Source: Nonomuraea sp. NEAU-A123
GTDB taxonomy: Bacteria; Actinomycetota; Actinomycetes; Streptosporangiales; Streptosporangiaceae
Length of the DNA: 64,000 nucleotides
Assembly (NCBI RefSeq): GCF_018603905.1
Contig: NZ_JAHFZZ010000002.1
Span: forward strand, 682,001-746,000
Reading direction: 5' to 3'
The position numbers were made by a program, and so were the translations under genes. The notes below the pieces were generated by a model, which was given only the letters and a program-made list of their open reading frames with translations, ran no database searches and was not told where the DNA came from. Positions 46,573-52,079 of this stretch are shown one piece after another (position 1 is the first letter of the stretch; each line of letters begins with the position of its first letter).

Positions 46573-47652
46573 TCACCCGCCCTTCACAACAGCGTTCCTG
46601 ACGTCTGCCGGGTGTTTGAGGAACTTGTAGGCGCGGGCCAGATCGGCGACCCGCTGGAGTTCTGTCAGGTCCAGCTGGGCGGGATAGGAGCCCAAGGCAA
46701 TGCCTGCCGCCGCTGCCCTGGAGATCCTCGTGTAGGTGGGCAGCAAGTCGCGCACCTGCTGGGGGTCGCTCGCGATCAGGCGCTGTGCCTTGGCCAGCGC
46801 GCGCTGGAAGGCCGCCAGCGTGCGAGGGTGTCCGCTGATCCACTTGTCGGTAGCTGATATGCCCGCGGTGTACAGGTTCGCGAACTCCTGGGTCATCACG
46901 TCCGCCACAATCCGCGTGTGCCTGGTCTCGCGGCCCATAGTGATGAACGGTTCGGCCAGCAGAGCAGCGTCAACCTGCCCCTTGCCCATCGCGTAGAGCA
47001 TGTCGGGATAGGACTTCTCGACCAGCACGACATCCCTCAACGTCAGTCCGGCCCGCTTCAGCACTGCTGTCAGTGCCAACAAGTCAAGCCCCATGAGGTT
47101 CGGGACCGCCACCGTCTTGCGTTTAAGGTCGGTCGCCGTCCTGATCTTCGACTTGGCGTTCACGACGATCGCGAAGCTTCCTGGCGCGGCCTGGTACAGG
47201 CTAGAGACGATCTTGAACTTCTCGCCCGCCTCGTTCACCCTGAAGACTGTGAAGTAGTCGGTCTGCGCCAGATCCACTATGCCGCTCAGTACCTGGGGCA
47301 CCACGGCCGCCGGACCGCTGATGATCAACGGCTGCACCGTCAGCCCTTCCTCCTTGAAATAGCCCTTGTTCAGTGCCACGAACACGGGCGCCGACTCCAC
47401 GGTCGGCATCACGCCGACCGTGATGGTGGACTGCTCGGGCGGGCTGGGCGGGCGGGCGGCGGCGCGCGGCTCCGCGGGCAGCGCCCGTACACCGACGGTG
47501 GCGGCGAGCACGGTGATCACGACCACCACGGCGGCGGTGAGCGCCAGGAAGTTGCGCCGCCTACGCTGATGGACCTCGATCGCCCTGGCGCCCAGGTCGC
47601 GCTCCGGCATGTCGTCCGCGATGCGGCCGAGTTGCTCTCCTAGCCAGGTCAT
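46573..47652 (-). CDS. Membrane-anchored NMT1/SsuA-type solute-binding protein, sigma-factor partner
   Basis: 359 aa. ATG 47652 overlaps the sigma-factor stop (ATGA). Residues 1-34 are a charged cytoplasmic segment (EQLGRIADDMPERDLGARA), 35-57 one membrane helix, 58-75 a Pro/Ala linker, and 76-359 a nitrate/sulfonate/thiamine-precursor-type binding domain (VGVMPTVESAPVFVALNKGY, IVDLAQTDYFTVF, AVPNLMGLDLLALTAVLKRAG, DAALLAEPFITM). It has no lipobox and no ABC permease or ATPase nearby. The position is where SigE-family genes usually carry an anti-sigma factor, so the cytoplasmic segment may hold the sigma factor and the outer domain sense a small molecule (inference). Confidence 0.87.
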   Translation of the reverse strand: MTWLGEQLGRIADDMPERDLGARAIEVHQRRRRNFLALTAAVVVVITVLAATVGVRALPAEPRAAARPPSPPEQSTITVGVMPTVESAPVFVALNKGYFKEEGLTVQPLIISGPAAVVPQVLSGIVDLAQTDYFTVFRVNEAGEKFKIVSSLYQAAPGSFAIVVNAKSKIRTATDLKRKTVAVPNLMGLDLLALTAVLKRAGLTLRDVVLVEKSYPDMLYAMGKGQVDAALLAEPFITMGRETRHTRIVADVMTQEFANLYTAGISATDKWISGHPRTLAAFQRALAKAQRLIASDPQQVRDLLPTYTRISRAAAAGIALGSYPAQLDLTELQRVADLARAYKFLKHPADVRNAVVKGG

Positions 47653-48176
47653 CGGCGTGCCTCCTCACTATGGGCGTCCAGAACGGGCAGTTTCGGCGCC
47701 AGCTCGGGCGCCAGCGCGCGCAGGCGGGCCAGGGCGTGGTGCGCCTGGCTCTTCACGGTGCCGACGGAGCAGCCCATCAGGTCGGCGACGTCACGTTCTG
47801 TCCGATCCTCGAAGAAGCGCAGAACGAGTACCGTGCGCTGCTTGGGCGTCAGCCGCATGAGTGCCTGACGCAGGACGATCCGCAGGATTGCGGAGTCTTC
47901 GGACGAATAGCCGCGGTCGGGCGGCTCGGCGCTCGGCACCTCGTCGGAACCGCGGCGCCGCCGCCACGAGATGTACTGGTTCACCATGGTCTTGCGGGCA
48001 TACGCGTCCAGGTTGTCGATGTGGCCTAACTTCGCCCACCGCCCGATCATGCGGACCAGCACACTCTGTACGAGGTCCTCTGCGAGGTGGACCTCTCCGG
48101 TGAGTAGGTAGGCCAGGCGCATCAACGGGCGTTGGTGAGCATCCACGAACGCCTGGAAACTGGCATCGCGATCCAA
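47649..48176 (-). CDS. SigE-family ECF sigma factor
   Basis: 175 aa. TTG 48176 has GAGGAG 6 bases upstream. Region 2 (about 8-75: AYLLTGEVHLAEDLVQSVLV, DAYARKTMVNQYISWRRRR) and region 4 (about 105-160: LTPKQRTVLVLRFFEDRTE, DVADLMGCSVGTVKSQAH) are complete; this is the SigE/ECF form with short linker common in Streptomyces-like genomes. Translationally coupled to the membrane solute-binding protein. Confidence 0.93.
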   Translation of the reverse strand: MDRDASFQAFVDAHQRPLMRLAYLLTGEVHLAEDLVQSVLVRMIGRWAKLGHIDNLDAYARKTMVNQYISWRRRRGSDEVPSAEPPDRGYSSEDSAILRIVLRQALMRLTPKQRTVLVLRFFEDRTERDVADLMGCSVGTVKSQAHHALARLRALAPELAPKLPVLDAHSEEARR

Positions 48177-48202
48177 CGTCTCTCCTCATGTCGATACCCC
48201 CC

Positions 48203-48228
48203 AGACGCTGTGGACGCGGCGAAAGGTT
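48203..48228 (-). promoter_or_regulatory. ECF-type promoter upstream of sigma gene
   Basis: On the minus strand AACC (48228-48225), 17 bases, then CGTCT (48207-48203), matching the AAC/CGTC style of actinobacterial ECF promoters and suggesting self-activation. It is 27 bases before the TTG start. Confidence 0.45.
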
Positions 48229-48854
48229 GGTACTCCTGAGGTCGGATGGCCGAGCCATCTGGATCAACGAACCCGCCAAGCTCCGATGCCGAACAAGTCA
48301 CCCAAAAACGGCCAGGAACCTCCCGTCCACGGCTCCCCTCGACCGTCTCGTGCGGAGGGTCATGTCGGCGAGGAACTGGGCGAAGCGCTGTGGCCGTGCC
48401 CGCGTGGGCCCACATCGCGTGTTGCCGGTCGGCGCTTTTACCGCGACGGGCGAGGCAGTAGAGCAGGTCGTGAGCGAGCACGCTCTCGCCAGACATAGCA
48501 ACTCCCTGGTCAGGGTTAGGTGATCACGGTCCAACGGTGCGGCTCCGGCCTCGCGCTGCCCCTCAACAGCGGGGGCCGGGGCCGCACCTGGTGCTCGACG
48601 CGTGTACGGGGAAGCCGCGCGGACCGACGCACTTCCGGGCGGCCAGGCCGCCACAACCGACCGTATGTCCAGGGTGCGCGTCTAACGGGCACAGGTTCGA
48701 GCAACCGAAGCAGATCTTCGTCACGAACCGGAATGTCCGGCGAGTGTCCGGGCGACGCCCTGGAACGCCCTCAAGGGGTGATTGACACTGAATTAGGTCG
48801 AACCCTCTTCGATTCACCCGCGAGACAGGACAAAGACGGCCAAGGAGTTCCAAG
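48229..48854. other. Long gap without a confident gene
   Basis: About 625 bases. Several frames are open on both strands but none has a start with RBS, a recognisable domain or usual codon pattern. A TTGACA (48782-48787) lies 68 bases before the next gene and may be its -35 box, although no good -10 follows. A plus frame around 48600-48770 with CPGC is possibly remnant coding sequence. Confidence 0.5.
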
Positions 48855-50780: not shown

Positions 50781-52079
50781 TCACAGGCGGACGACGAGCA
50801 GGGCGATGTCGTCGCGGGCGCCGCTGCTGACGTCCAGGTCTGCCAGTAGGGTGTCGGCGAGGCGTTCGGGGTCGAGCCGGCCGGATCGGGCGAGTGCGTC
50901 GGTCAGGAGTGCCAAGCCGACGTCGATGTCCCGGTCGCGGCGTTCGATGAGACCGTCGGTGTACAGGACGAGGGTGTCGCCGGGTTTGTAGGGCAGTTCG
51001 GCCTGAGGGCGGGTGACATGTTCGGGGCGAGCACCCAGCGGAGGGTCGGTGGCCTGGTCCAGCAGCGCACAGGAGCTGTCCAGGTGGTGGAGCAGGACGG
51101 GTGGCGGGTGGCCGGCGCTGCTGTAGGTGATGCGGCGCCTTCTGGTGTCGATCACGGCCTTGATCGCCGTGGTGGCCAGCGCCCCTTCGAGCGAACGGGC
51201 GTACAAGCCGAGCACTTCCAGCGCCGGGGCCGGCTCCTTCATGGCGCGGATCGCGGCACTCAGCGCGCTGCGCAGCATCCCCATGGAGGTGGCGGCTTCC
51301 AGGCCGTGACCCACGACGTCGCCGACCGCGACGGCGAAGCAGTCGTCCGGCAGGTCGACGACGTCGTACCAGTCGCCGCAGACGTTCAGGGTTCCCACCG
51401 CTGGCAGGTAGCGCACCGCGATGTTGGGGTGAAGGTCGAGATCGGGACAGCGGAGCATGGCCTCCTGCAGGGCGAGCGCGACCTGGCGCTCACTGGCGTG
51501 GGCCTGGCGGAGTTCCTCGTTCAGCTTTTGTAGTTCCTGTGCCCTGGAATAGAGTTCGGCCTTCATCTCCGCCTCCCGCCTCGTTGAGCGGCGGGCGGTG
51601 GTCCGCTGCGGACCGGAGGTATGGACGAACTCCGTCATGTCCTCGGCCCGGTGGATGATCCACAACAGCGTCCCGTCCGGCGCCAGGACGGGGGTGTTGA
51701 TCGGGGACCACCAGCGCTCCTCGAACGCTCCAGGACAACCGGCGAGGGGGATGTCGTACTTTTGCAGCGCCATCGTGTCCGGTTCCCGGTAGGCCAGCAC
51801 CCGCTGCAGCGAGGCGTTCAAGTTCGTCACGCCGCTGGCGTTGGCATCCTCGGGGTTGTCGGGGAAGGCGTCGAAGATGTACTGCCCGATCAGGCCTTCG
51901 GCGGTGCGGCCGGTCGCGCGCAGGTAGGCCGCGTTCACATCGACGATCATCAGATCTGGGTCCAGCACCAGACATGGTGACGGCGTGGCAGCGAACAGCG
52001 CCGCATGGTCGACGTGCGGCGTGGTCGGTTTCCGCGTGCCCAGCCGACGAAAGCTGGTGAGCTTGCTCACGCCTTCCAC
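50781..52079 (-). CDS. PAS-SpoIIE (PP2C) serine phosphatase
   Basis: 432 aa from GTG 52079 (GTG 52070 possible). PAS domain about 25-150 (LVLDPDLMIVDVNAAYLRAT, TGRTAEGLIGQYIFDAFPDN), a coiled coil about 165-200, then the SpoIIE phosphatase domain about 205-432 (VCGDWYDVVDLPDD, VAVGDVVGHGLEAA, SSAGHPPP, DTLVLYTDGLIERRDRDID, GARDDIALLV) with metal-binding aspartates. Soluble; likely dephosphorylates an anti-sigma-factor antagonist in a partner-switching stress pathway. No antagonist gene is nearby. Confidence 0.92.
   Translation of the reverse strand: MEGVSKLTSFRRLGTRKPTTPHVDHAALFAATPSPCLVLDPDLMIVDVNAAYLRATGRTAEGLIGQYIFDAFPDNPEDANASGVTNLNASLQRVLAYREPDTMALQKYDIPLAGCPGAFEERWWSPINTPVLAPDGTLLWIIHRAEDMTEFVHTSGPQRTTARRSTRREAEMKAELYSRAQELQKLNEELRQAHASERQVALALQEAMLRCPDLDLHPNIAVRYLPAVGTLNVCGDWYDVVDLPDDCFAVAVGDVVGHGLEAATSMGMLRSALSAAIRAMKEPAPALEVLGLYARSLEGALATTAIKAVIDTRRRRITYSSAGHPPPVLLHHLDSSCALLDQATDPPLGARPEHVTRPQAELPYKPGDTLVLYTDGLIERRDRDIDVGLALLTDALARSGRLDPERLADTLLADLDVSSGARDDIALLVVRL

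Follow-up and report, generated by a model that had tools for sequence, protein, structure and literature searches.

What does a binding domain of the transporter type do in the gene position normally held by an anti-sigma factor? In the 64,000-nucleotide stretch of Nonomuraea sp. NEAU-A123 DNA analysed here (hereafter, the window), a sigma factor gene overlaps a partner gene of this kind, and a preliminary description of the locus had proposed a one-protein sensor, in which ligand binding on the outside frees the sigma factor on the inside.

Architecture of the gene pair

Both genes, and the features of the pair given below by coordinate, lie on the minus strand. The sigma factor gene (47649-48176) encodes 175 residues from a TTG start that is preceded by GAGGAGAG; its product contains both Pfam sigma regions (that is, 2 and 4) and scores 172.4 bits against the SigE-family model TIGR02983, above the curated cut-off of 141.55. 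The sigma stop and the partner start overlap as ATGA (47649-47652), a junction shared by 17 of the 19 orthologous loci, with a longer overlap in L057 and an in-frame fusion in L056. In this last case (G014, contig C61, 925-2553), a single open frame runs through sigma factor and partner, and the end of the sigma part carries an ALARLR repeat; the fusion is seen in one draft genome and may be natural or an assembly or sequencing error.

The partner gene (46573-47652) encodes 359 residues that we regard as a putative membrane anti-sigma receptor. They comprise a presumably cytoplasmic tail of 34 residues (residues 1-34, 47551-47652; MTWL..RIADDMPERDL..RRRR) that ends in RRRRN, a predicted membrane helix (residues 35-58, 47479-47550) formed by the hydrophobic stretch after RRRR, a short Pro/Ala linker and an outer domain of the NMT1 type (residues 76-359, 46573-47427). 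The NMT1/THI5-like family PF09084 matches residues 86-299 (E = 8e-28; 98.2 bits against a gathering cut-off of 20.5), and the score against the SsuA family TIGR01728 (107.8 bits) lies under the curated cut-off of 163.5. A structure model built from 15 aligned sequences reached a mean pLDDT of 83 (an earlier model from 8 near relatives was poor, with a pLDDT of 49, and was discarded). By blocks of ten residues, confidence is 75-98 over the outer domain and 38-58 in the tail and helix, in which low-confidence region residues 16-56 are modelled as one continuous helix. Residues 70-359 adopt a two-lobed binding-protein fold that matches SsuA/NrtA/TauA-type proteins at Z scores of 28.6-31.6; the best matches include SsuA, NrtA, CmpA, TauA and thiamin- and PQQ-binding proteins, and single out no one ligand.

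The partner contains no cysteine and therefore no lipobox; 17 of 18 orthologues likewise have no cysteine and one has a single cysteine. With neither a lipobox nor ABC genes alongside, the partner lacks the marks of an ABC-transporter binding lipoprotein. Neither Pfam (searched to E = 10) nor NCBIfam (to E = 1) listed an anti-sigma domain for it, in searches in which the HMMER filters drop most weak matches, and the RsgI model was likewise absent from the Pfam matches listed at E up to 10, so that these matches do not assign the partner to the RsgI family. Its 34-residue tail is shorter than the class I anti-sigma domain, for which 50 residues or more are given in PMC7406223. Compared with the class II domain (that is, a short helical segment embracing the sigma factor), the tail is short and its helices are predicted at low confidence. 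The earlier reading of a SigE-family sigma factor that overlaps, through ATGA, a partner with a short tail, one helix, an NMT1/SsuA-type domain and no lipobox is thus borne out.

Conservation of the pair and of its promoter

Among 54 Nonomuraea genomes, 19 encode a sigma factor at least 77% identical to this one, and all 19 also encode the tailed partner; if a broken copy in G048 is set aside, the next sigma factors are at most 66% identical. The partner is whole in 18 of these genomes and is split in G004 between two contig ends, one bearing the tail and the sigma gene (L078, L144) and the other the remaining partner (L052). By its overlap and by this joint occurrence, the partner gene is coupled to the sigma gene and inherited together with it, as an anti-sigma gene would be. 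In G009, the partner is present from residue 51 onward at a contig end, and no close sigma gene was found in that genome. In G048 (L143; contig C246, 3262-3979), both genes are broken and lie side by side, which suggests joint decay or poor assembly.

The genes that flank the pair at eight loci (the window and L070-L076) differ, save between close species pairs; as they differ between lineages, the sigma factor and its partner alone have been kept together. Searches with five ABC queries (tblastn, E up to 1e-3) found no ABC gene within 5 kb of the pair, at 41.5-53 kb of the window or at the seven orthologous loci with 5 kb flanks, and the motif LSGG[QEMN] is absent from these seven loci. The earlier statement that no ABC permease or ATPase lies nearby therefore holds within 5 kb, but not farther out, where the window contains, at about 35.2-40.5 kb, ABC genes of the oligopeptide type together with a binding protein of their own. 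A gene for a PAS-SpoIIE phosphatase also lies near the pair (window 50781-52079), and a PAS-GAF-SpoIIE gene adjoins the binding lipoprotein L160 in G027; the presence of a PAS-SpoIIE-like neighbour at both loci is probably a coincidence.

The preliminary description had called for a search for the same gene pair in other actinomycetes. Named relatives of at least 50% identity all belong to Nonomuraea (eight loci). Beyond the genus, a query of 110 positions, covering the tail and the beginning of the binding domain, was searched against samples of 250 genomes of the family (226 of them outside the genus) and 394 of the class, with 5 to 18 candidates scored per genome, and no match joining tail and binding domain was found in other genera within these samples. 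Of the matches listed from other genera, some begin at position 1 but extend no farther than position 80, and the others begin at position 15 or later; six of the late-starting matches were inspected (L162, L173, L176, L178, L182 and L185, among them all four that begin before position 25), and each has a lipobox-like motif. The pair thus looks like an invention of Nonomuraea, restricted to this genus as far as it was sampled.

Upstream of the sigma gene lies a promoter-like site, CAACCTTTCGCC..GCGTCTG (48202-48229), which the preliminary description had recognized as AACC-17-CGTCT. That proposal has held up across the genus: all 19 orthologues have AACC-N17-CGT ahead of the sigma gene, in sequence that has otherwise diverged, and the longer form AACC-N17-CGT(C/T)T is found in 18, L126 having CGTTC. 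This conservation fits autoregulation of the sigma gene, which we consider likely from the sequence pattern. A strict form of the pattern occurs at two sites only in the genome, before the sigma gene described here and before that of a paralogous pair (L026), with none in a reversed control, and the scan of this genome thus yielded no further target. When a related pattern was searched with one mismatch permitted, 8 sites matched, compared with 5 in the reversed control, so that no members of a regulon can be named.

A shared tail beneath exchanged outer domains

Within the partner, conservation declines from the inside to the outside. Mean pairwise identity among the 18 whole orthologues is 0.78 in the tail, 0.65 in the helix, 0.61 in the linker and 0.55 in the outer domain, the tail being the best-conserved segment. 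In seven comparisons, dN/dS (by the Nei-Gojobori method, biased here by high G+C third positions) was 0.04-0.57 for the tail and 0.44-1.04 for the outer domain, with the tail lower in six and higher in L047.

The next-nearest SigE-family sigma factors (at most 66% identical) are accompanied by partners in which an MTWL...RRR tail is joined to a propeller-like outer domain unrelated to the one described here (no partner was obtained for L141). The evidence for a propeller in these outer domains is weak, with all matches below cut-offs (PD40, E = 0.023 and 0.015; TolB, E = 0.015), and an NCBIfam 'anti-sigma factor' model matched the tail and helix of one such partner far below its cut-off (E = 0.012). 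The kinship of the tails is far clearer. A profile of the 18 tails gave 31-52 bits on all 10 parsed propeller-type tails, against a maximum of 13.9 bits and a 99th percentile of 5.5 bits on shuffled tails (n = 3,100), and in profile-profile comparison between the two types the tails matched at E = 2e-14 and the outer domains at a probability of 0.3%. Within the genome itself, the tail profile scored 24.6 bits on L026, 10.0 on L025 and at most 4.3 on the remaining partners of SigE-family sigma factors, and thus shows no kinship to partner tails other than these two. The 33 parsed tail-bearing loci comprise 8 with a binding domain, 25 with a propeller-like domain and none with both, and in other genera all 19 are propeller-like; two truncated or broken genes (L197 and L200) and at least five further rows (G103, G218, G057 and the second matches in G249 and G257) were left out of this parsing.

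The tail has therefore been kept while the outer domain was exchanged. The homology of this tail to those of partners with an unrelated outer domain strengthens the reading of the protein as tail, helix and outside binding domain, and together with the co-occurrence in 19 of 19 genomes it upholds the earlier assignment of this architecture to the position of an anti-sigma gene. The propeller-type pairs, such as L026 in the same genome, also mostly have an ATGA overlap and a similar promoter: their upstream regions carry AACC followed 16-18 bases on by NGTC in 10 of 10 cases read, and exactly AACC-N17-CGT in 4 of 10 (no upstream sequence was obtained for L137). They differ from our pair in the outer domain, which is propeller-like there and has a binding-protein fold here.

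If the tail binds the sigma factor, as the preliminary description supposed, the two might be expected to co-vary. Tail distances do correlate with sigma distances, as do outer-domain distances, and the partial correlation between tail and sigma factor was weakly positive, reaching significance in 30 propeller-type pairs (r = 0.23, p = 0.013) but not in 17 binding-domain pairs (r = 0.21, p = 0.13).

The direction of the exchange can be approached from both genes. In the sigma tree, the factors linked to a binding domain form one clade (support 100/100) among the propeller-type sigma factors; as the backbone is without resolution, the view that the propeller-like outer domain is probably ancestral derives from its wider spread more than from the tree. 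In the binding-domain tree, the 18 sigma-linked domains again form one clade (100/99), which is nested among lipoproteins: its successive neighbours are L091 (98/83), L160 (100/99, on a long branch) and Nonomuraea lipoproteins of the ABC type, L002 among them (98/94), and all 36 comparison rows carry a lipobox-like motif, as recognized by a regular expression only. Such nesting makes a one-time recruitment of a lipoprotein outer domain onto a standing tail-and-helix chassis the simplest history. The donors were probably, judging from these sequences, ABC-linked lipoproteins without the tail.

The NMT1/SsuA-type lipoproteins L002 and L003, whose outer domains are homologous to that of the partner (44% and 36% identical, respectively), illustrate such donors. 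L002 has two ABC permease genes downstream and L003 at least one, and neither has the tail or a sigma gene. Homologues that are lipoproteins beside ABC genes had been named beforehand as an argument against the receptor reading; they do exist, but they lack the tail, and in the tree such lipoproteins surround the sigma-linked domain. A kinase gene with a NIT (nitrate/nitrite sensing) domain faces L002, which offers a hint only as to the ligand. At L217 (G000, contig C1, 2-5056), an ABC binding lipoprotein and two permeases face a NIT-domain histidine kinase, and a similar-looking kinase start adjoins L003, as judged by eye; lipoprotein, permeases and kinase may form a pair for anion uptake and sensing. 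No ABC genes were found by tblastn around L091 or L160. L091 sits 48 bases downstream of a Ser/Thr kinase gene with STAND and WD40-like parts (L215, 1385-5965, in G010), perhaps another signalling use of this branch of binding proteins.

A receptor reading and its alternatives

We favour, with a probability of roughly two in three, a reading in which the partner acts as an anti-sigma receptor anchored in the membrane, its sensor derives from a lipoprotein of the transport type and a ligand gates the release of the sigma factor. The 34-residue tail would hold the SigE-family sigma factor at the membrane, and the single helix would join it to the two-lobed binding domain on the outside, a domain that would have come from a transport-type lipoprotein and taken the place of a propeller-like one. 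Ligand binding (or ligand loss) by this domain would free the sigma factor, perhaps because the helix is cut and the tail then degraded, or because the protein changes conformation. From the AACC-N17-CGTCT promoter, the freed sigma factor would then raise transcription of the operon formed by its own gene and that of the partner, and it would act on further targets as well. An Ala40-Ala41 pair in the helix, invariant across the orthologues, is compatible with a route of the RseP/ClpXP type, though such pairs are common in membrane helices.

The partner could also be a true membrane anti-sigma factor whose outer domain has lost the ability to bind a small ligand. It would then respond to another protein, to the cell wall or to an ABC component, or act as no more than a bulky lock; we regard this as unlikely. 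In its favour, the sigma-linked outer domain has changed more rapidly than the related ABC lipoproteins (mean identity within the genus of 0.55 versus 0.76 for L002-type lipoproteins, with 0.86 for the sigma core), the presumed cleft loops, picked from general knowledge of the fold and not from coordinates, show no significant excess of conservation (permutation p = 0.09), and a fold can persist without binding. Against it stand the full two-lobed fold, modelled at good confidence, and the QTDY and AEPF motifs of the outer domain, which are largely kept in the 18 orthologues. The fast divergence and the lack of clear conservation in the cleft loops leave ligand sensing plausible rather than demonstrated.

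Less probable still is that the partner is exported as a binding protein, with an N terminus that serves only as signal or anchor; its gene would then be a target of the sigma factor, and its product would be used by another transporter. The sequence RRRRNFLAL, which we take to resemble a Tat motif, a weak match to the Tat-type signal PF10399 (E = 0.86, below cut-off), the Ala-rich stretch after the helix and the transport-type lipoproteins among its relatives would all suit such a protein. However, the supposed signal is the best-conserved part of the partner and is common to partners with other outer domains, and the partner has no lipobox, overlaps the sigma gene and has no ABC gene in any of the eight neighbourhoods searched (tblastn, five ABC queries). 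It is very improbable that the partner assists the sigma factor, as a positive co-factor or as a tether to the membrane, and does not inhibit it. Even if sequence presumably does not separate an inhibitor from an activator, no type of regulator is more frequent among ECF factors of known mechanism than the membrane-anchored anti-sigma factor (74%, as reported in PMC8103513). The genes of such anti-sigma factors usually lie next to the sigma gene.

The closest known systems resemble the pair in some respects and differ from it in others. SigI, the sigma factor of RsgI, is not known as a SigE-family ECF factor; the signal of RsiV is lysozyme, a protein, and the outer domain of RsiV is not known to be a solute-binding protein. 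AioX and the regulatory domains of CmpC/NrtC, which belong to the same fold class as the outer domain according to the list of fold matches, are sensors that act through a kinase or a transporter and are not known to act on a sigma factor. RsgI of Clostridium thermocellum resembles the partner in its short cytoplasmic domain, single helix and outside ligand-binding sensor; as described in PMC12203970, it is represented by nine paralogues that sense different substrates, and its inside part is destroyed by RseP and then ClpXP, through XAA sites in the helix. It differs in having a periplasmic domain and carbohydrate-binding sensors, and no RsgI domain was found in the partner among the Pfam matches listed. 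RsiV of Bacillus subtilis, as portrayed in PMC4183432, combines in one protein a membrane anti-sigma factor and the receptor for a signal from outside, as we propose for the partner. No anti-sigma factor with a binding-protein outer domain was found in the open-access literature among the matches listed (by titles and the starts of abstracts), and we consider the partner a new form of a known kind of protein, in which a membrane receptor of the anti-sigma type carries a binding domain derived from a transporter.

The pair suggests that in such bacteria proteins for uptake can be put to a new use, as receptors in direct communication with a sigma factor, and the single-origin swap under a constant tail shows a route by which such receptors can evolve. 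More tentatively, we propose that actinomycetes of this family possess an exchangeable set of receptors for SigE-family sigma factors, in which one tail-and-helix chassis would carry varied outer domains and in which, at this locus, a transporter domain would achieve ligand-gated sigma release in one protein, with no kinase or transporter. The two types of partner are natural chimeras in which the tail as the sigma-binding part and the outer domain as the sensor can be tested. Binding-protein folds are among the easier sensors for ligand screening, and a chassis that accepts such a fold would be useful for building sensors.

Coupling of this kind is widespread in the genome. It encodes 19 SigE-family sigma factors above the cut-off, 16 of which are followed by a partner that starts at most 15 bases from the sigma stop (membrane segments of these partners were judged by eye), and in 13 of the 16 the overlap is of four bases, as in this pair; the arrangement exceeds chance. 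A Pfam scan of 13 of the 15 other partners (L014 and L028 left out) found a YceG-like domain in L015, a PASTA domain in L022 and nothing above cut-off in the rest. The outer parts of these two proteins (YceG/MltG-like in L015 and PASTA in L022) are related to the cell wall, and their genes, too, are coupled to SigE-family sigma factors.
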